Shown: piece after piece, positions 36,360 through 47,459 of the stretch | Numbering within the stretch: position 1 is the first letter of the stretch | Layout of the letters: each line of letters opens with the position of its first letter | Assembly: GCA_030054095.1 (NCBI GenBank) | Contig: JASGCO010000015.1 | Coordinates: 1 to 64,000, forward strand | DNA length: 64,000 bases | DNA from: Sediminibacterium sp. | GTDB taxonomy: Bacteria; Bacteroidota; Bacteroidia; B-17B0; Aurantibacillaceae | Direction: 5' to 3' | Made by a program: the position numbers and the translations under genes | The notes under the pieces: generated by a model | What the model was told of the DNA's origin: nothing | Databases searched by the model: none | The model's input: the letters and a program-made list of their open reading frames with translations, nothing else

Positions 36360-36580
36360 GCTTTCGTGTTTAATTTATTTTCCAGTTTTTTCAGACGGCG
36401 TTCAATAATTACCAGCAGAGTTACGGCTGATCCAAACACCAATGCCATAACGGCAATCACCACATATATTTTTCCGCTTTCGCGAAACATGTCGGCCATT
36501 TCGGGACTAGTGTTCTGTGCCTGGGTTATAAAACCACTCAGGCAGAACAATACTAAAAGTATCAGCGATTTAAGCTTCAT
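36356..36580 (-). CDS. ccmD: CcmD-family small membrane protein
   Basis: A 74-residue protein. A signal-like hydrophobic segment (LKSLILLVLFCLSGFITQAQ) is followed by a short polar stretch and one transmembrane helix (IYVVIAVMALVFGSAVTLLV) ending in a basic cytoplasmic tail (ERRLKKLENKL), the CcmD hallmark. Bacteroidota versions keep the extra N-terminal segment. CcmD links CcmC to the CcmE haem hand-over. It overlaps ccmC by 11 bp and ccmE by 4 bp. Confidence 0.85.
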   Translation of the reverse strand: MKLKSLILLVLFCLSGFITQAQNTSPEMADMFRESGKIYVVIAVMALVFGSAVTLLVIIERRLKKLENKLNTKA

Positions 36581-37232
36581 CAGTTTGTTTTTTTAAAAAC
36601 GTAAAACGGGTTTTAACTTCAAATAACCAGTAGCTGAATAATATCCAGCCAATGCAGGCCGGGTAAAATACCAGGCGCATGTTATTATCCAGGTCGTACT
36701 TTCCAAAGGCCGGATTACCGCCGTTTCCGGGGTGCAGGGAATCGGTAAGCCTTGGCAGAATCATAATAAACACATTGAGCATCACAAACGCGAAAATGTT
36801 ATACACCGCCGAAATCCGCGCGCGTTTTACCTCGTCGGTAACCGATCCTCTTAAAATAAAATAGGCCAGATAAATCAGAATCCCAATAGCCACTCCGTTT
36901 AATTTCGGATCCTGAAACGTCCAGAACGTTCCCCAGGTATAGCGGGCCCAGAGCGCGCCGGTTAAAATGCCCGGAATGGCAAAAAACAAACCCGTTTCGG
37001 CCGATGTTTGCGCTTTGGTATCGTGTGCCAGATTGTTGTTGCCCAGATAACGGATACTGTACACCAGCGACAAGCCCATCTGAAACAGCATGGCAAACCA
37101 GATTGGGACGTGGTAATACACATTACGGATGGTTTCATTCAATATATCAAGGCGCGGAACGGTGTTTAACAAGCCCCACACAATCGTGTAAAGGATCAGC
37201 ACCACAGCCGCTATTTTATAAAGGTGTTTCAT
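36570..37232 (-). CDS. ccmC: Haem exporter/handling protein CcmC
   Basis: A 220-residue membrane protein with six hydrophobic segments. The tryptophan-rich haem motif is WARYTWGTFWTFQDPKLNG, with conserved histidines in YYHVPIWFAM and DSLHPGNGGNPAFG. This is the CcmC/CcsA pattern; CcmC loads haem onto CcmE. The frame is open much further upstream (37418), but those residues are not hydrophobic in the CcmC way. The ATG at 37232 (MKHLYKIAA) gives the family's length, so I use it. It is spaced 86 bp from ccmB. Confidence 0.92.
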   Translation of the reverse strand: MKHLYKIAAVVLILYTIVWGLLNTVPRLDILNETIRNVYYHVPIWFAMLFQMGLSLVYSIRYLGNNNLAHDTKAQTSAETGLFFAIPGILTGALWARYTWGTFWTFQDPKLNGVAIGILIYLAYFILRGSVTDEVKRARISAVYNIFAFVMLNVFIMILPRLTDSLHPGNGGNPAFGKYDLDNNMRLVFYPACIGWILFSYWLFEVKTRFTFLKKQTDEA

Positions 37233-37318
37233 GCGCGTCGGTTTACACAAAGTGGTATAAAAGGAGAATGACCCATCGGTTAAAATTTTAAAGAAACACC
37301 CTGAAAAAGAGGCGTTTT

Positions 37319-37975
37319 TTAATCCTGCCAAAGATACGGAAATAAAAGTATTGCCAGCATAATCATAATGACATTTAAAGCCATTAAAATTCCTAAAAAC
37401 TGGTAACTGACACTCCATGCCAATCCGTCCACCGCCTGTTTACTGACGCGGATCACCAGCACCAGCAGCGGCATCAGCACCGGAAAACTGAGAATACTCA
37501 TAAGGGCAAAGTTCCCCTGAGCTTTGGCAGCCACCGCGCTCATTAAACTTAATACCCCGGCAAACCCGGTAGAAGCCAGCGACAAAACAGTAACAAACAA
37601 CCCCATGTTTTCGATCTGGTTACTCACAAACCAACTGTAAAAAAACAAGGTAATAAAACTCAGTACCAGCATAAACCCCATGTTATAGATCATTTTCGAT
37701 AAAATAAACTGGTGCGGGCGGTAATACAGGTAATTAAACAGCGCTTGCCCGCTTTGTTCCTTTAAAAAACTCTTCCCCGAAATGGTAATGGAGCTAAACA
37801 ACAGAATCACCCAAAACAGGGCATTCCAGGTGGGTTTATCCACCTTGCCTTTAAAGCAAAGGGCGCTTACAAACACGGTGCCTATAATGTACACCAGTAT
37901 CCCCCCTAAGGTGGTTTTCTGTCTGAATTCCAGAAGAAATTCCTTTTTAATAAGCGATAAAAGCATGCCCTGCAA
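37319..37975 (-). CDS. ccmB: Haem exporter membrane subunit CcmB
   Basis: A 218-residue integral membrane protein with six hydrophobic segments, opening with LIKKEFLLEFRQKTTLGGIL. This matches the CcmB start (L..KDL..E.R....l...l). It is the membrane partner of the ABC protein CcmA, which is not in the window and may be encoded elsewhere. Two ATGs lie three codons apart at the N-terminus, and the first is used. It is the first gene of the reverse-strand ccm operon; a GC-rich repeat and a hairpin lie upstream. Confidence 0.9.
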   Translation of the reverse strand: MQGMLLSLIKKEFLLEFRQKTTLGGILVYIIGTVFVSALCFKGKVDKPTWNALFWVILLFSSITISGKSFLKEQSGQALFNYLYYRPHQFILSKMIYNMGFMLVLSFITLFFYSWFVSNQIENMGLFVTVLSLASTGFAGVLSLMSAVAAKAQGNFALMSILSFPVLMPLLVLVIRVSKQAVDGLAWSVSYQFLGILMALNVIMIMLAILLFPYLWQD

Positions 37976-40356: not shown

Positions 40357-40372
40357 TACCATATTTATGGTA
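40357..40372. promoter_or_regulatory. Upstream operator of haem operon (TACCATATTTATGGTA)
   Basis: A 16-bp inverted repeat with TACCAT/ATGGTA arms. A second copy with one base changed lies 33 bp downstream. See findings. Confidence 0.65.
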
Positions 40373-40389
40373 TGCTAACTGACTGATAT

Positions 40390-40405
40390 TACCATGTTTA
40401 TGGTA
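40390..40405. promoter_or_regulatory. Proximal operator of haem operon (TACCATGTTTATGGTA)
   Basis: A 16-bp inverted repeat, 15 of 16 bases as in 40357-40372, with centres 33 bp apart (about three helical turns). It ends immediately before the -33 TTG, the place an activator would bind. Confidence 0.65.
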
Positions 40406-40436
40406 TTGTTTAGATTTATTCTAAATAATAATTTTG
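40406..40436 (+). promoter_or_regulatory. Promoter of the haem/iron operon
   Basis: TTG at 40406-40408, 20 bases, TAATTTTG at 40429-40436: an exact match to the Bacteroidota consensus. The ATG follows 18 bases after. Confidence 0.72.
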
Positions 40437-40454: not shown

Positions 40455-41714
40455 ATGAACAAACTACTACTTTCTTTCGTTGCCCTGTACTGTTTAAAAA
40501 CGGGCGCCCAAACCATCACCGATACCGTTTCGCTCGGCGCGGGTTACAGTAACCAAAAATGGTACAGCTTACAAAATGATGAACAAGGCACGTCACAAAA
40601 TAAAGACAACTGGGACATCGCGTTTGAAATTACCGGCTTTTCAGGAGCCATTCTCGCTAACACGCAAAAATCAAATCTGCAGGTTTACAAAGCGCCATAT
40701 AAAATAAGTGATTTTGCCAGTATAGATACCAGCGGCATTACAAACTGGCCCAAGCTTAATAACAGTGATACTACCTGGGCCATAGGCGCTTTTAACAAAG
40801 GTGGTAGTTTCTCAAACTCGTATTACCTGGGATGGGGATTGTACGATGTGAATACGCATGTTGTAAACGGGGATAGTTGCTATGTAATTAAATTGTCGGC
40901 CGCAACGTATAAAAAAGTAAAGTTTAACACACTGGCAGGGGGCATTTATAATTTTACCTATTCCGATCTTAATGGTGCCAATGCGCAAACGGTGTCTTTA
41001 AATAAAGCCAACTACACCGGAAAAAATTTCGCGTATTATAATTTAACCACAAATACAGCCCTCGACCGGGAGCCAGCTTCCAATTCATGGGATTTAACGT
41101 TTGGGCGTTATGTTTCATTGATTCAGCCAGGGAATACGCCTTACGCGGTGGTGGGCGTGCTTCAGAACAAAGGGGTTCTGGCAGCGCAGGCAGATAATGT
41201 AGCCTCTCCGCAAACCTATGTTAACTGGCAGGGGCAACCATTCGTAACCGCTCATTCGGTTATTGGCAGCGATTGGAAAACTTTCGATCTGACTGCTAAT
41301 GCCTGGCGTTTGGCCGGAGATACAGTGTATTTCGTGAAGTCGAAGTCTGGTGCAATATGGAAATTACGTTTTACAGGTTTTGGCGGAAGCGCTAACGGCT
41401 CTATTATTTTTACGAAGGAAATGCTATCGGCAGTTTCTGTAGCCGAACAGCAATCCAGCTATTTAACAGGGTTTACGCTTTATCCGAATCCCTGCCAATC
41501 GTATCTCAATGTGTTATTGGCTTCTGATCAGCATCCCGCTATAACGATTGAAGTAGCAGATATTACCGGAAAGGTATGGCACAGTGCCGACGTTAAAATG
41601 AATGCAACACTTATCAACGAGAGGGTGGATGTTACAGGCTTACCACCAGGTGTGTACCTTGTAAAAGTGACCTCCAATAAAGCCACATCCGTACGTCGGT
41701 TTATAAAACAGTAA
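40455..41714 (+). CDS. HmuY-family protein with T9SS sorting domain
   Basis: A 419-residue secreted protein: signal peptide (LLLSFVALYCLKTGAQ), then a HmuY-like domain with KDNWDIAFEITGFSGAIL, NTALDREPASNSWDLTFGRY and SVIGSDWKTFDLTANAWRL, the last matching the IGxDWKxFD segment of the second HmuY protein in the operon. HmuY proteins take up haem at the cell surface. The C-terminal 80 residues have LYPNPCQSYLNVLL and GLPPGVYLVKVTSNKATSV + RRFIKQ, a type A T9SS sorting domain. So this copy is secreted and surface-attached, while the copy at 46488 is a lipoprotein. It is the first gene after the regulated promoter. Confidence 0.85.
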   Translation: MNKLLLSFVALYCLKTGAQTITDTVSLGAGYSNQKWYSLQNDEQGTSQNKDNWDIAFEITGFSGAILANTQKSNLQVYKAPYKISDFASIDTSGITNWPKLNNSDTTWAIGAFNKGGSFSNSYYLGWGLYDVNTHVVNGDSCYVIKLSAATYKKVKFNTLAGGIYNFTYSDLNGANAQTVSLNKANYTGKNFAYYNLTTNTALDREPASNSWDLTFGRYVSLIQPGNTPYAVVGVLQNKGVLAAQADNVASPQTYVNWQGQPFVTAHSVIGSDWKTFDLTANAWRLAGDTVYFVKSKSGAIWKLRFTGFGGSANGSIIFTKEMLSAVSVAEQQSSYLTGFTLYPNPCQSYLNVLLASDQHPAITIEVADITGKVWHSADVKMNATLINERVDVTGLPPGVYLVKVTSNKATSVRRFIKQ

Positions 41715-41750
41715 ATTTTACCAAACACTAGATACATTAAACAATACAAC

Positions 41751-42716
41751 ATGAAATCATTAATAACAGTGGCAGGATGCCTTATCATCTTTGCCGTAAA
41801 CGCGCAAACTAAAAAAGCAGCCATTCAAACAGCGGCCTTACCGCCTGCGGAAACAATGCAGGATAAAAAAACTGCAGATCGGGAATGTATTAAAGCGATG
41901 TGCGGCATTTATAAGGTGAGCTTTAGTTTTGCAGAAACTTTTTCGCCGGATACGGCCTATCAGTTTCATAAACGTTATAACGAGTGGGGCATAGAATATG
42001 TTTTTGTAGCGGAAGAAACAAGTGATAAAATAAGTTTACAGCATTTACTGATCGTAAACGATTCCGTAATTGTAAAACACTGGCGCCAGGATTGGGTATA
42101 TGAAAACCGGGAAGTGTATCAGTACTATAAAAACAATGAATGGATCCGGAAAACCATAACTGAGGCGGAGGCCCGAGGTACCTGGACGCAAAAAGTGTAT
42201 CAGGTAGATGATAGTCCGCGTTACGAAAGTTATGGTACCTGGGTGCATATAGACGGAAAGCATTTCTGGGAAGGCGTGAATGATGGCCCACTGCCGCGGC
42301 GTGAATTTACCAAACGCAACGACTACAATGTGTTAAAACGCCATAGTCGCATAGAAGTGTTACAGGATGGTTGGGTATTAAATCAGGACAATGAAAAAAT
42401 CATTCGCGCAAACGGCATAGATAAATTATTATGCTGGGAAAAAGGAATTGAAAAATTTACCAGAGGTAATTACGATCCCACACCTGCCCAAAAATGGTGG
42501 AACAAACAGGTACACTACTGGGCCGATGTCAGAAAAGTGTGGGCCGAAGTGTACGCCGTTAATCCGGCATTGAAACTGGACAAACGTGTTGGAGATAAAT
42601 TTCTGTTCGAGGCACTGATGGAACTTGGCGATACGCAGTGTGTTTCAAAACCCTATGTGCGGGGAGCCGCTGATACCGAGATACGTAAAGTAATAACCGC
42701 CTATCTAAAGGCATAG
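41751..42716 (+). CDS. DUF6607-like exported protein
   Basis: A 321-residue protein with a signal peptide (ITVAGCLIIFAVNAQ). Repeated aromatic-rich strands (YNEWGIEYVFVAEE, RQDWVYENREVYQYY, SYGTWVHIDGKHFWEG, CWEKGIEKFTRGNYDPTPAQ) suggest a periplasmic beta-domain. It fits my recollection of DUF6607, a family met in iron/haem uptake loci; the assignment is moderate. WRQDW and KxWNKQ patterns with many His/Trp would suit a haem binder, but no haem motif is proven. It is flanked closely by a HmuY gene and a hemerythrin gene. Confidence 0.7.
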   Translation: MKSLITVAGCLIIFAVNAQTKKAAIQTAALPPAETMQDKKTADRECIKAMCGIYKVSFSFAETFSPDTAYQFHKRYNEWGIEYVFVAEETSDKISLQHLLIVNDSVIVKHWRQDWVYENREVYQYYKNNEWIRKTITEAEARGTWTQKVYQVDDSPRYESYGTWVHIDGKHFWEGVNDGPLPRREFTKRNDYNVLKRHSRIEVLQDGWVLNQDNEKIIRANGIDKLLCWEKGIEKFTRGNYDPTPAQKWWNKQVHYWADVRKVWAEVYAVNPALKLDKRVGDKFLFEALMELGDTQCVSKPYVRGAADTEIRKVITAYLKA

Positions 42717-42729
42717 CATTAAACCGAGA

Positions 42730-43464
42730 ATGAATTACAGCGAAAGTACAATCAGAGAGTTGGTGGACAATAACAGTATATACCAGTTGTTAACCGATAA
42801 ACTCGACGTTCCGGACGAAGAGTACGATAAAACCTTCAGTCAGATTTGTTCCGAGCGCCGGGTGGATGCGGGACTTATGGAACAGATACTCAAAGCCTAT
42901 GAAACGGATGCTGATTTTGCCTGTAATGATTTTAAACGCTTCCCTGTTCCTGATCTGGTAAATTACCTGCAACGTTCCCATGCCTGGTACCTCCATAAAA
43001 AATTACCGGAGATCGAACAAACGATTCTGCAGGTGTTTAATATGTATCAAGGATCTCATAAGTTGCTGGTGTATCTGTGTCTGTTTTTTAATGATTATAA
43101 AGAACGTGTTATAATGCATATAAAAGACGAAGAAGAGCGGCTGTTCCCGTACATTCATCAGTTAATGGATGCGGCAGAAGGGAAACTGAACACTAAAACA
43201 ACTCTTCAGCTTCTGGAAACATTTTCGGTAAGGCAGTTTTTAAAGGAACATTCACATATTGAGGACGAACTACAGGAGGTTCGCCGTGAAATATTAAAGT
43301 ATAGTTATCAGAACAAATTGCCTTTGCCGTACAAAATATTTTTAAATCAGTTATACTATTTCGAAGTGGAACTAACCCGCCATGCCATACTGGAAGAAGA
43401 GGTGTTATTACCCAAGGTAATGGAAATGGAAGAAATGCTATTACGTAACCTTGCCATACGTTAA
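42730..43464 (+). CDS. Hemerythrin-like di-iron protein (YtfE/RIC-like)
   Basis: A 244-residue cytoplasmic protein. The C-terminal 160 residues form a hemerythrin four-helix bundle with ligands in QRSHAWYLHKKLPEIEQ, YKERVIMHIKDEEERLFPY, LKEHSHIEDELQ and LTRHAILEEEVLLPKV, that is, all His/Glu positions for two irons. The N-terminal 70 residues differ from the usual ScdA cysteine domain. Related proteins (RIC/YtfE) repair iron-sulfur clusters under nitric-oxide or oxidative stress. Its place inside a haem-uptake operon suggests protection or iron release during haem use. It is 14 bp after the previous gene. Confidence 0.88.
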   Translation: MNYSESTIRELVDNNSIYQLLTDKLDVPDEEYDKTFSQICSERRVDAGLMEQILKAYETDADFACNDFKRFPVPDLVNYLQRSHAWYLHKKLPEIEQTILQVFNMYQGSHKLLVYLCLFFNDYKERVIMHIKDEEERLFPYIHQLMDAAEGKLNTKTTLQLLETFSVRQFLKEHSHIEDELQEVRREILKYSYQNKLPLPYKIFLNQLYYFEVELTRHAILEEEVLLPKVMEMEEMLLRNLAIR

Positions 43465-43466
43465 TT

Positions 43467-43799
43467 ATGTGCGATTATAGAAAACTGGCCTGGCAGGCAG
43501 ATGGGTACGTGGTGGAATGTAAGGCGTGTAAAAGCATACAACTGGCTTTTGGTACAACCGTACTGAGAATGACGAAGAAAGCCTATCGGGCATTTTGCGC
43601 GCAGGTAGAACGAGGAATGAAGTCTATTCATAACGCACCCTTTCCTGAATCGAAATCCTTTCACCTGGATACCTATTCTGCTGGTACCCTTATGGTATTA
43701 AATCAACAGGAATTAATTAAACTACAGGCATTGTTAGAAGAGGCGGCATTTTCACTTGAAATGAAACGCGTATTGGATAGCAGCAAAATAGAAGGATGA
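43467..43799 (+). CDS. Small protein of unknown function (possibly DUF6686)
   Basis: A 110-residue protein. It opens MCDYRKLAWQADGYVVECKA + CKSIQLAFG, with cysteines C2, C18 and C21 that could bind metal. The rest is helical with no named motif (KSFHLDTYSAGTLMVLNQQE). It lies 3 bp after the hemerythrin gene and overlaps the TonB-receptor gene by four bases (ATGA). Related small proteins near hemerythrins in Bacteroidota are named DUF6686, as I recall. A regulator or metal sensor of the operon is one possibility. Confidence 0.6.
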   Translation: MCDYRKLAWQADGYVVECKACKSIQLAFGTTVLRMTKKAYRAFCAQVERGMKSIHNAPFPESKSFHLDTYSAGTLMVLNQQELIKLQALLEEAAFSLEMKRVLDSSKIEG

Positions 43800-46042
43800 G
43801 GAACTGTTGGGTGGTGATAATTGTTTTAGCGAAAATGACTCTCGGGCAAACGCTTAAAGTAGTGTCAACTGTTGGCGATGAACCAGTGTCGTTTGCCGCG
43901 CTGAAAGCAGAGCACAATGGAAAGACGTGCGTTGTAAAATTAACGGACGCGTATGGTATGGTGAACTGGAACGGTGCACTGACAGATTCCCTCGCCTATA
44001 CTGTAAACGTAAAATCAGTGGGTTTCCTCCCATTCACGCAACGGTTAACCGGCGCTGAACTTAAAACGCTTTCACGTATTCGTTTGCATCCTGATTCGGT
44101 TCAGTTGACAGAAGTAGTGGTTACCGCGCAGTACGCGCCTGTTCCGGTACATCAAACCGTTCAAACAGTACGGGTAATAGACCGGGAAAAAATGGAGCGG
44201 ATGGGAGCCGTTAACCTGCGGGATGTTCTGATCCATCAATTAAATGCACGCATTGAACAGGATAATATTTTAGGTGCAGGAATGCGGTTTCAGGGAATCA
44301 GTGGCGAAAACGTAAAGGTGCTTATAGATGGCGTACCTGTAATAGGACGGCTTAACGGAAATGTAGATCTCTCTCAGCTAAATTTAAGTAATGTGGAAAG
44401 GATAGAAATTACGGAAGGCCCCTTGTCTGTACAATATGGAACCAACGCACTGGCAGGAACCATTAATTTGATTACTTCCAAACCCTTTCAGAAAAAATAC
44501 ACGATCGGAACAAGTTTGTGGTACGAAAGTACAGGACAGTATAATACCACGCTTAATGGCTCAGTCGCTTCTGGGCGGCACTTTGTTCAGTTTTCGGGTG
44601 GCCGTAATTATTTTGATGGCTGGAATGCAGGAGAAACACCTTTTACGTTTCCGGTTTCGCAAGTGGCGGATAGTACACGCTATAAGCAATGGAAACCTAA
44701 AGAGCAGTATTTTGCCGGGCTTGAAGGCCGGTGTGGACTAAAGCGGTTGTCGGCAGATTTTAAAACGGCATGGTTTACCGAAACCATTACCAACAGAGGC
44801 TATCCCAGGGCACCCTATGGAGAAAGCAGTTTTGATGATTATTACTATACCCGAAGGCTTGACAATGCAGTAGCGCTTAATGGAGCGATTTCTCCTGACT
44901 GGAGCGTATCATCCGTATCCGCTTTTAACGTGTACCGGCGCGTAAAAAAAACGGTGTACAAGGATCTGACGACGCTTGACGAAATGCTTAGTGCTAATCC
45001 CGGTGATCAGGACACTACCGGGTTCCACTTATGGATGTCGCGCGCTTCTTTTATCCGAAAGAAAGAAGCGGCTGTGTTTAATTATGAGCTAGGATACGAT
45101 GTTAATTATGAGTCGGCCATCGGCAAACGCATAAAAGAACATGTTCGTTATATGGGCGATTACGCCTTGTTTGTTACAGCTGAATGCAATCTGTTCCGGA
45201 AACTGCAATTAAAAGGGGGAGCAAGATACGCCTATAATACACGTTACCGGGCGCCGCTAATTCCCTCGCTGAATATCAGCTACAGGCCTTTTCCGGCGCA
45301 TACCATCAGAGCCGGATACGCGCTGGGTTACAGAGCCCCTTCTATAAAAGAATTGTATTTCTATTTTGTAGATATAAACCATCAGATTGCAGGAAACGAT
45401 AAGTTAACGGCGGAAAAGGGAAACACTATTACCTTTAATTACCAATACACACTAAAGCGTCATGCTTTTCAGTTTAAGTATGAGGCGGGAGGTTTTTATA
45501 ATGCGATACGAGGATTGATTACATTGGCGCAGGTTCAGGGAATGGAGTACACGTACGTGAATATTGGGGAGTACAAAACAAAGGGCGCACAAATGCAGCT
45601 ACAATGTCAGTATAAACAAACGGGTTTGCAACTGGGTATGGTGTACGCAGGGCGCTCTAATGTTCCGGAGAGTCCGATGGTAAAGCCGTTTAGCTATAGC
45701 CCGGAGCTAAATGCTTCGCTCAATCATTCGCTTTTAAAGCAGGGTTTAACGCTTTCTTTCTTTTATAAGTATAATGGAAAAATAGCGGCATTTGTACAAC
45801 AGGGGGATGCCATAAATCAGCGGTTAATTCAGGATTATCACACCGCCGATTTTACAGTAACAAAACAGTTTCTGTCAGATCGTATTCATTTGGTGGCGGG
45901 GTGTAAAAATATACTGAACGTTACCTCCATACAGCAAACAGCCGGGGGAGGTGCCCATGCTTCCGGAAGTAATTCTTTGCCAGTAGCCACAGGGCGTAAC
46001 TACTTTATGAAATTAACTTTAACAATAGAACAATGGAAATGA
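43796..46042 (+). CDS. TonB-dependent receptor, haem/iron uptake (HmuR-like)
   Basis: A 748-residue outer-membrane receptor. A signal peptide (VVIIVLAKMTLGQ) and a short carboxypeptidase-like N-terminal domain (residues about 17-105) are followed by the plug (about 110-225; VRVIDREKMERMGAVNLRDV, VKVLIDGVPV and VERIEITEGPLSVQYGTNA). A 22-strand barrel then ends in KLTLTIEQWK. The plug motif VERIEI.xG..S..YG is strongly conserved. With two HmuY proteins in the same operon, haem is the likely substrate. The stop overlaps the DoxX gene by four bases. No TonB or ExbBD genes are seen. Confidence 0.9.
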   Translation: MRNCWVVIIVLAKMTLGQTLKVVSTVGDEPVSFAALKAEHNGKTCVVKLTDAYGMVNWNGALTDSLAYTVNVKSVGFLPFTQRLTGAELKTLSRIRLHPDSVQLTEVVVTAQYAPVPVHQTVQTVRVIDREKMERMGAVNLRDVLIHQLNARIEQDNILGAGMRFQGISGENVKVLIDGVPVIGRLNGNVDLSQLNLSNVERIEITEGPLSVQYGTNALAGTINLITSKPFQKKYTIGTSLWYESTGQYNTTLNGSVASGRHFVQFSGGRNYFDGWNAGETPFTFPVSQVADSTRYKQWKPKEQYFAGLEGRCGLKRLSADFKTAWFTETITNRGYPRAPYGESSFDDYYYTRRLDNAVALNGAISPDWSVSSVSAFNVYRRVKKTVYKDLTTLDEMLSANPGDQDTTGFHLWMSRASFIRKKEAAVFNYELGYDVNYESAIGKRIKEHVRYMGDYALFVTAECNLFRKLQLKGGARYAYNTRYRAPLIPSLNISYRPFPAHTIRAGYALGYRAPSIKELYFYFVDINHQIAGNDKLTAEKGNTITFNYQYTLKRHAFQFKYEAGGFYNAIRGLITLAQVQGMEYTYVNIGEYKTKGAQMQLQCQYKQTGLQLGMVYAGRSNVPESPMVKPFSYSPELNASLNHSLLKQGLTLSFFYKYNGKIAAFVQQGDAINQRLIQDYHTADFTVTKQFLSDRIHLVAGCKNILNVTSIQQTAGGGAHASGSNSLPVATGRNYFMKLTLTIEQWK

Positions 46043-46491
46043 AAAAGACAATTCGCGTAACGTTTATCGTCTTACGCTTAGCTTTAGGGTCGCTTATGGT
46101 TTGGGGCGGCATGGGAAAATTTACCGGTAGCAAGCCTCCTGCCGATCAGATGCTTACATTATCTCAGGAGAAGAAAGCGGCATTACTAGGCGACCCGGAT
46201 GCGTTAAAAATCCGGAATTATATTTTTGGAATGAAGCAAAGTGGTTTTGCATGGGAGCTACTGGGTGTGGCAGAAATGGCCGGAGGACTCTTGTTAATCT
46301 CGCAGATTTTTTCATTTCTGGGAGCCTTGATGCTATTGCCGGTAACCATACATATTTTCTTATTTCACCTTGTGCTTGAACCACACGAGCCGGGCGAAGT
46401 TATTCTGGCGGTTTTATACCTGATTGTTAATCTCGCATTGATTGTTAAGGAATACCGATTATTTAAACCCTTGATAAAACTGAATGTATGA
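46039..46491 (+). CDS. DoxX-like small membrane protein
   Basis: A 150-residue protein with four hydrophobic segments. It begins TFIVLRLALGSLMVWGGMGK, and the later EMAGGLLLISQIFSFLGAL and PVTIHIFLFHLVLEPHEPGE match the DoxX pattern. The function of the family is not defined. The operon's other junctions are ATGA overlaps, and one is present at 46039, so I use that ATG rather than 46033. It overlaps the HmuY lipoprotein gene by 4 bp. It may help energise or stabilise the transport system; that is inference. Confidence 0.75.
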   Translation: MKKTIRVTFIVLRLALGSLMVWGGMGKFTGSKPPADQMLTLSQEKKAALLGDPDALKIRNYIFGMKQSGFAWELLGVAEMAGGLLLISQIFSFLGALMLLPVTIHIFLFHLVLEPHEPGEVILAVLYLIVNLALIVKEYRLFKPLIKLNV

Positions 46492-47459
46492 GATGGTTTT
46501 GTTTGTTAGTGCCGATTATCGTGCTTATTGTTTCCGGATGCGAAAAAAGGGAAATACCTGTGCCTCCTTTTAACAGGGGAGATATTATTACAGCATCTGT
46601 GGAGATGATGCCCGATTACCGTCAGCAGATCTGGTACAGTCTGAATGCTAATAAAGTAATAAGTGTAAACACCAAGGAAGATTGGGATCTGGCATTCGAT
46701 TGCCGCTCAGGAAGCGGTTCTGTTTATATAAATACCGCCAAGGTAATGCGGGCTTACCGTACGGGGAAGCAATCACTCCGTGAAGTAACTGATACAAGCG
46801 GGCTTGGGGCAAATGGTAAAGCCGATGCCCCCAGTGGTAATCCGGACAGTATCGTGATTAAGGATTGGCAGACGCAACCGTCAGTATATATTTTGAACAT
46901 GGGCTACACGCTTACCAACCAGCCGGCAGGGTATTATAAATTGAAACTAATTTCGGTAAATGGTGATAAGTGCTTTATTGAATATGGAAAAGTGTTTGAT
47001 ACGCTTGTTCATACTGCTGAAATTACCATGCAGAAAGGGTATAGTCGTGTTATGTATTCGTTGCTTAAAGGGCAGCAGGTAGCTATAGAGCCTAAGCAAG
47101 CCGATTACGATTTGTGTTTTACCCAGTACACGCACCATTTCGCCAATCCTTTCCAGTACTATCAGGTAACGGGCGTGCTTACCAACAATTATAAAACACG
47201 GGTAGCACCATGTAATGGTAAATCGTTTACGCAGGTAACCGCGGCAGATACAGGACGTGTTGTGTTTACCAGTCGCCAGAATGCCATTGGTTTCGATTGG
47301 AAAACTTTTGATCTGAATACCAATCAGTTTACGGTGGATGCGTCAAAAGTTTATATTGTACAGGATAGTAGAGGGTTTTATTATAAACTGCATTTTATAG
47401 ATTTTTATAACCCATTTGGGATAAAAGGTTGCCCAAAATTTGAGTTTAAGAAGCTATGA
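46488..47459 (+). CDS. HmuY-family lipoprotein
   Basis: A 323-residue lipoprotein with lipobox VSGC (Cys at 18). HmuY-like features are QQIWYSLNANKVISVNTKED + WDLAFDCRSG, VKDW-type loops, QADYDLCFTQYTHHF and IGFDWKTFDLNTNQF; these are shared in order with the T9SS-sorted paralogue at 40455. HmuY binds haem through two histidines in Porphyromonas. Here the candidate is the His pair in QYTHHFANP. As the last gene of the seven-gene operon it gives a second haem-binding protein anchored in the outer membrane. Confidence 0.85.
   Translation: MRWFCLLVPIIVLIVSGCEKREIPVPPFNRGDIITASVEMMPDYRQQIWYSLNANKVISVNTKEDWDLAFDCRSGSGSVYINTAKVMRAYRTGKQSLREVTDTSGLGANGKADAPSGNPDSIVIKDWQTQPSVYILNMGYTLTNQPAGYYKLKLISVNGDKCFIEYGKVFDTLVHTAEITMQKGYSRVMYSLLKGQQVAIEPKQADYDLCFTQYTHHFANPFQYYQVTGVLTNNYKTRVAPCNGKSFTQVTAADTGRVVFTSRQNAIGFDWKTFDLNTNQFTVDASKVYIVQDSRGFYYKLHFIDFYNPFGIKGCPKFEFKKL

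Follow-up and report, generated by a model that had tools for sequence, protein, structure and literature searches.

Gene content of the locus

In the genome of Sediminibacterium sp. (assembly GCA_030054095.1), seven open reading frames (ORFs) on the plus strand occupy positions 40455-47459 of the window, by which is meant the whole stretch of 64,000 nucleotides (nt) of contig JASGCO010000015.1 analysed here, and make up a putative haem-acquisition operon. In 5' to 3' order they encode a HmuY protein with a type IX secretion system (T9SS) tail, a DUF6607 protein, a di-iron hemerythrin, a DUF6686 protein, a TonB-dependent receptor, a DoxX protein and a lipoprotein HmuY. The intergenic gaps of 36, 13, 2, -4, -10 and -4 nt suggest, from spacing only, that the seven genes are co-transcribed. 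An earlier note on this DNA had described a haem operon with two differently anchored HmuY proteins of the same motif order, a TonB receptor, a DoxX-like protein, a di-iron hemerythrin and two unknown proteins. The named genes are as described there, and the HmuY pair is also kept beyond this genome; the two further proteins are present but not unknown, one belonging to the RhuH haemophore family (DUF6607) and the other being DUF6686.

The first gene (40455..41714, +; 419 amino acids, aa) encodes a candidate haemophore of the HmuY family (PF14064, 35.1 bits, cut-off 27) with a T9SS type A C-terminal sorting domain (TIGR04183, 49 bits, cut-off 23) at residues 342-419, the very C terminus. The last gene (46488..47459, +; 323 aa), in the position of RhuA and HfpY, encodes a HmuY-family lipoprotein (PF14064, 62.5 bits, cut-off 27) with the lipobox VSGC and its Cys18. 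The two proteins are 26 % identical across ~300 residues (E 5e-22), both have WD-AF followed by G-DWKTFDL, and the 4.63 Mb genome has no further HmuY match. The best structural alignments of both predicted models were to HmuY-family structures, with VIA Z of 13.6 for the T9SS-tailed protein (predicted local distance difference test, pLDDT, 87.3) and 16.7 for the lipoprotein (pLDDT 90.3) against HmuY 3h8t, and the sorting-domain part of the former had Z 11.9 against the C-terminal domain of mirolase. With Foldseek, HmuY structures ranked first for the lipoprotein, all ten matches with E ≤ 0.001 being HmuY-like, and 35th and lower for the T9SS-tailed protein. One branch (100/100) splits a tree of 75 HmuY proteins into 26 of the T9SS class and 49 of the lipoprotein class, which, judged by this tree, are separate lineages.

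In the T9SS class His135 is invariant in 25/25 sequences; the axial haem ligands of characterised HmuY members are His/His or Met/Met. The lipobox Cys of the lipoprotein class is invariant (18/18) and opens stretches like CEKKELP or CLKEEIP (CEKREIP in the window), which presumably resemble the surface-export signal of Bacteroidota. Because the lipobox Cys opens such a stretch, both HmuY proteins are predicted to face outward, and most likely both are outside the cell and differ in their anchor. A T9SS-secreted HmuY is known in Flavobacterium columnare (PMC9618737), and the HmuY lipoprotein of Porphyromonas gingivalis is reported to be a surface protein itself (PMC11967795).

The second gene (41751..42716, +) belongs to DUF6607 (PF20311, E 1e-105). 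Profiles of five and of 31 DUF6607 sequences matched PDB 8xjc, described as 'haemophore', over the full length (E 4.6e-84 and 2.3e-113, respectively). This structure is RhuH of Riemerella anatipestifer, which is reported to bind haem with a dissociation constant of 3.4e-11 M and with His96 as ligand, to extract haem from haemoglobin and to be secreted in vesicles (PMC11967795). His110 of the gene 2 product (the His in KHWRQDW), a putative haem ligand, is invariant in 31/31 DUF6607 sequences and aligned with His96, the position being counted by hand on the 31-sequence profile alignment. By family, gene 2 would encode a haemophore, likely the haem extractor, and since it belongs to the RhuH family and keeps the ligand His, the operon contains three predicted haemophores, not two. 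Neither DUF6607 nor DUF6686 was named in the literature searched.

The receptor gene (43796..46042, +) encodes a predicted TonB-dependent haem receptor of the HmuR/RhuR/HfpR type, with a YRAP-H-NxxL motif, the best NCBIfam matches of which were haem/haemoglobin receptors, below cut-off. It lies between gene 4 (43467..43799, +), encoding a small DUF6686 protein (PF20391) with a conserved CxxC, and the gene of a DoxX-family inner-membrane protein (46033..46491, +), which corresponds in position to THC0290_1813 of the hfp operon; both are proposed to be accessory. In F. psychrophilum, hfpR-THC0290_1813-hfpY is reported as an iron-scarcity transcript on the basis of rapid amplification of cDNA ends, a reporter and quantitative reverse transcription PCR, and HfpY binds haem (PMC9331221).

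The hemerythrin (42730..43464, +) scored 25.2 bits with PF01814, just below the cut-off of 25.3, and its residues 34-230 matched RIC/YtfE (TIGR03652) at 78.7 bits; this being far below the cut-off of 204.7, the protein is filed as RIC-like only. It has His84, His130-x3-Glu134, His174 and His218-x3-Glu222, which we take to be the six-residue di-iron ligand pattern of RIC/YtfE. It is the sole RIC-family match in the genome; no close relative was found in the genus (≤28 % identity), and in two other families identity was 32 %.

About 3 kb upstream, on the minus strand (window 36570-37975), are two ORFs which by eye resemble the CcmC/CcmB haem exporter/cytochrome c maturation membrane proteins.

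Conservation and exchange of genes

A scan for DUF6607, from which the best 80 of 581 confirmed relatives were kept, gave 84 loci, consisting of the window, 4 genus relatives and 79 named contigs, with one duplicate (L046) dropped. The relatives among these best 80 include Crocinitomicaceae, Chitinophagaceae, Sphingobacteriaceae and Cytophagales-type genomes, and DUF6607 is present in 6 of the 37 genomes of the genus; RhuH homologues have been reported mainly in Weeksellaceae and Flavobacteriaceae (PMC11967795). T9SS-HmuY was found in 28 of the 84 loci, lipoprotein HmuY in 48, both in 25, the TonB receptor in 66, DoxX in 21, DUF6686 in 15 and the hemerythrin in one, the window's own, with distant members undercounted in these figures since contig ends truncate some of the loci and the profiles were made from at most five genus sequences (one for the hemerythrin).

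The order T9SS-HmuY, DUF6607, receptor, lipoprotein HmuY was recognised by eye in 16/84 loci (L046 left out). One cultivable relative that has this frame is Brumimicrobium aurantiacum (L055). With the hemerythrin confined to a single locus, the seven-gene order, the conservation of which the earlier note had offered as a check, is ruled out as a conserved unit, and for the same reason the hemerythrin cannot be the general step inside the cell, handling iron or stress, that it had been taken for. The most fitting reading is that of a local accessory recruit outside the conserved system, RIC-like and perhaps working in iron-sulphur (Fe-S) repair, subject to the iron switch of the operon.

Six further regions were picked from 17 HmuY-bearing genomes. 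In G015, G033, G021 and G038, which have no DUF6607 match, T9SS-HmuY is first, the receptor is kept and lipoprotein HmuY is last; the genes in between encode a CbiX-like chelatase and a PepSY membrane protein (identified with Pfam for one pair and by like sequence for the others). The contig of G022 begins inside the chelatase gene and includes DUF6686, and in G058 the order differs, being receptor, lipoprotein HmuY, T9SS-HmuY. Since RhuH is swapped out while the HmuY pair and receptor stay, the pieces appear to be separable modules. In the sister operons L200, L201, L202 and L205, the CbiX-like and PepSY genes replace RhuH between T9SS-HmuY and the receptor.

Promoter sites and a candidate regulator

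A Fur box candidate, GTTTAGATTTATTCTAAAT (40408..40426, +), is located 28 nt ahead of the operon's first ATG. It scores 17/19 against the Fur-box consensus of R. anatipestifer (PMC5609570) and is the only exact match in the genome to TTTAGAWTWNWTCTAAA, a consensus pattern built for this analysis. Fur-box-like sites (≤4/19 mismatches) were found upstream of 12 of the 17 units that begin with T9SS-HmuY (T9-first) and of 40 of the 65 other DUF6607 units, with 1.2 % and 1.9 % of mononucleotide shuffles, respectively, being positive. Iron/Fur regulation of the rhu and hfp promoters is reported from experiment (PMC11967795, PMC9331221). A sigma-70 promoter scan was uninformative for this phylum.

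Further upstream is a palindrome, TACCATATTTATGGTA (40357..40372, +), an operator candidate identical to sites in the feoA and sufA promoters, and its second copy, TACCATGTTTATGGTA (40390..40405, +), with one base different. TACCATAWWWATGGTA has three exact matches in the genome, one each ahead of feoA, sufA and this operon. The pattern TACCAT-N4-ATGGTA was not enriched genome-wide in comparison with a reversed control, and its meaning therefore rests on context. In relatives, 24 such sites were fetched, 6 before sufA (each with a Fur-like box), 1 before feoA and 17 before neither. The looser TACC-N8-GGTA is present within 300 nt upstream of 13/17 T9-first operons and upstream of 2/65 other DUF6607 units, both of which also own T9SS-HmuY, the loci in these counts being related to each other; for background, all loci taken together (1.54 Mb) contain 65 sites, the operon-upstream ones among them. 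It is also found near the start of three of the four RhuH-less T9-first operons. We infer that TACC-N8-GGTA may be a second operator, linking the operon to feo and suf.

Composites of a Fur-like box and TACCAT-N4-ATGGTA are conserved in sufA promoters of the genus (G000:C38:254299-254344 = L009; L020, L021, L025, L026, L028, L029). The feoA-feoB palindrome is at G000:C2:42837-42852 (L008), and a regulator gene which by eye looks like the DtxR family is ~3 kb off.

In 7/18 T9-first loci, a same-strand gene that ends within 300 nt of the operon on its upstream side encodes a response regulator of ~215 aa with a LuxR-type helix-turn-helix, as in the operon-linked, cysteine-bearing example at L042:9547-10191 (-). 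A gene with a LuxR-type helix-turn-helix has this position in one RhuH-less operon (L202) too. The Response_reg and GerE Pfam domains were confirmed for one of these regulators, and two cysteines are present in 15/15 aligned members, a third in most. The window genome has no operon-linked response regulator; the nearest relative there (34 % identity) likewise has such cysteines and is encoded at a different locus, where no iron gene was seen next to it. A 7-2-7 TACC palindrome is in the style of NarL/LuxR-type sites. In P. gingivalis, CdhR, a regulator of hmuYR, is reported to be encoded beside a hemerythrin gene, and how hmuYR is regulated is said to be mechanistically unclear (PMC10434189). 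A link between the TACC box, the LuxR-type regulator and the hemerythrin is put forward as a hypothesis. More broadly, we suggest, tentatively and as a possibility short of an even chance, that a conserved frame of T9SS-HmuY, lipoprotein HmuY and receptor, in which either RhuH or a CbiX-like chelatase with PepSY serves as an exchangeable processing module, shares with suf and feo a so far unrecognised regulon. In it, TACC-N8-GGTA would be read by a cysteine-bearing, perhaps CdhR-like, LuxR-type response regulator sensing Fe-S or haem status.

A nitric oxide (NO)-stress regulon acting through Rrf2 was considered and rejected, the genome having two Rrf2 genes and nothing tying either to the operator. 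One of them is near a gene that by eye is truncated-globin-like (L166, G000:C6:170000-175000), suggesting a separate NO-stress locus.

Proposed function and comparison with known systems

The locus is quite probably an operon for haem acquisition, of the Hmu/Rhu/Hfp kind and controlled by Fur. Under iron shortage, repression would be lifted and one transcript produced. The RhuH haemophore would strip haem from haem proteins, the T9SS-exported and T9SS-anchored HmuY would widen the outer catchment, the lipoprotein HmuY would sit at the receptor, and the TonB-dependent receptor would import the haem; the hemerythrin would most likely serve as a RIC-like Fe-S repair protein responding to the common switch. 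The likely order of transfer would be from RhuH and/or T9SS-HmuY to lipoprotein HmuY and on to the receptor. Haem handover from RhuH to RhuA or RhuR is proposed by the authors of the RhuH study (PMC11967795), and by analogy a relay of some kind is plausible here. The sequence itself gives the genes with their families, the anchors, the predicted folds and the operator sites along with how far these are conserved; haem binding by the operon proteins, like co-transcription, the order of transfer and the second regulator, is a prediction.

Several observations weigh against haem acquisition under Fur. The upstream regions of 5/17 T9-first and 25/65 other units have no Fur-like site. The receptor matches are under the family cut-offs, with B12-receptor models scoring close behind, and the simple RAP-H-NxxL pattern, found in 25/67 receptor matches, is not diagnostic because it is missing from 42. 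No His or Met is invariant among the 18 lipoprotein-class HmuY sequences, so that their ligands cannot be named. In F. columnare, deletion of the T9SS-HmuY is reported to have caused no growth defect in the media tried (PMC9618737).

The earlier note had envisaged a two-step relay, in which haem passes from the surface T9SS-HmuY to a separate lipid-anchored HmuY layer, with the hemerythrin handling iron inside. The two HmuY classes are indeed separate lineages kept together in 25/84 loci, suggesting a division of labour, but both proteins are predicted to face outward, the extractor proven in a relative is RhuH and not HmuY (PMC11967795), and the hemerythrin is found in 1/84 loci. Because HmuY lipoproteins are themselves surface proteins, the two HmuY proteins differ in anchor and not clearly in layer, and with the RhuH-family gene 2 as the likely extractor such a relay is improbable. 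T9SS-HmuY, RhuH and lipoprotein HmuY could instead be parallel catchers for different sources (haemoglobin, free haem, cytochromes), each passing its haem straight to the receptor, as might be suggested by the sister genomes in which the HmuY pair and receptor remain and CbiX-like and PepSY genes take the place of RhuH. All of them would, however, feed a single receptor, and RhuH is reported to take haem from haemoglobin while RhuA cannot (PMC11967795), which suggests complementarity; we consider this arrangement less likely than not. Uptake of another tetrapyrrole, e.g. cobalamin or its precursors, would accord with B12-receptor models scoring nearly equal to haem ones and with the CbiX-like chelatase genes of RhuH-less sister operons, but is made very improbable by the conserved RhuH ligand His, the Fur boxes upstream, the operator common to feo and suf, and the HmuY folds of the predicted models.

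This reading gives the gene that in this lineage still goes by DUF6607 a working function, and the locus is an example of three kinds of predicted haem catcher in a single operon with a single receptor. The candidate operator is testable and, in Bacteroidota, would connect the uptake of haem with the import of ferrous iron and with Fe-S assembly.

Among known systems, RhuH-RhuR-RhuA of R. anatipestifer has a Fur box in common with the operon, but its rhuH is described as divergent from rhuR-rhuA, whereas here the genes form a single same-strand unit to which T9SS-HmuY, DUF6686, DoxX and the hemerythrin are added (PMC11967795). The hfpR-DoxX-hfpY transcript of F. psychrophilum shares the order receptor, DoxX, HmuY-like haem-binding protein and an iron-scarcity promoter, and as described lacks T9SS-HmuY, RhuH and hemerythrin (PMC9331221). 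In P. gingivalis, hmuYRSTUV likewise combines HmuY and a TonB receptor under iron regulation, in the accounts available without RhuH (PMC10434189, PMC9331221); the seven genes here include neither a CobN-like chelatase HmuS nor the membrane proteins of hmuYRSTUV. The T9SS-HmuY of F. columnare has the same HmuY domain and Por_Secre_tail and is treated alone, the available text not mentioning a lipoprotein HmuY as its partner in the same operon (PMC9618737). No T9SS/lipoprotein HmuY pair in one operon was found in the accessible parts of the literature on HmuY with T9SS, sorting domain, hemerythrin or hemophore, and one row of a published table places a T9SS protein after the HmuY gene in Prevotella intermedia. 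With the Fe-S repair di-iron proteins RIC/YtfE/ScdA the hemerythrin shares the core, the HxxxE pairs and ligand-like His, but it is far below the curated cut-off and located in a haem operon. As RhuH, receptor-DoxX-HmuY and T9SS-HmuY each have a published relative, the combination is the unusual part: judged by its genes, the operon is a variant of the Hmu/Rhu/Hfp haem-uptake systems, ordinary in kind and unusual in its three predicted haemophores.

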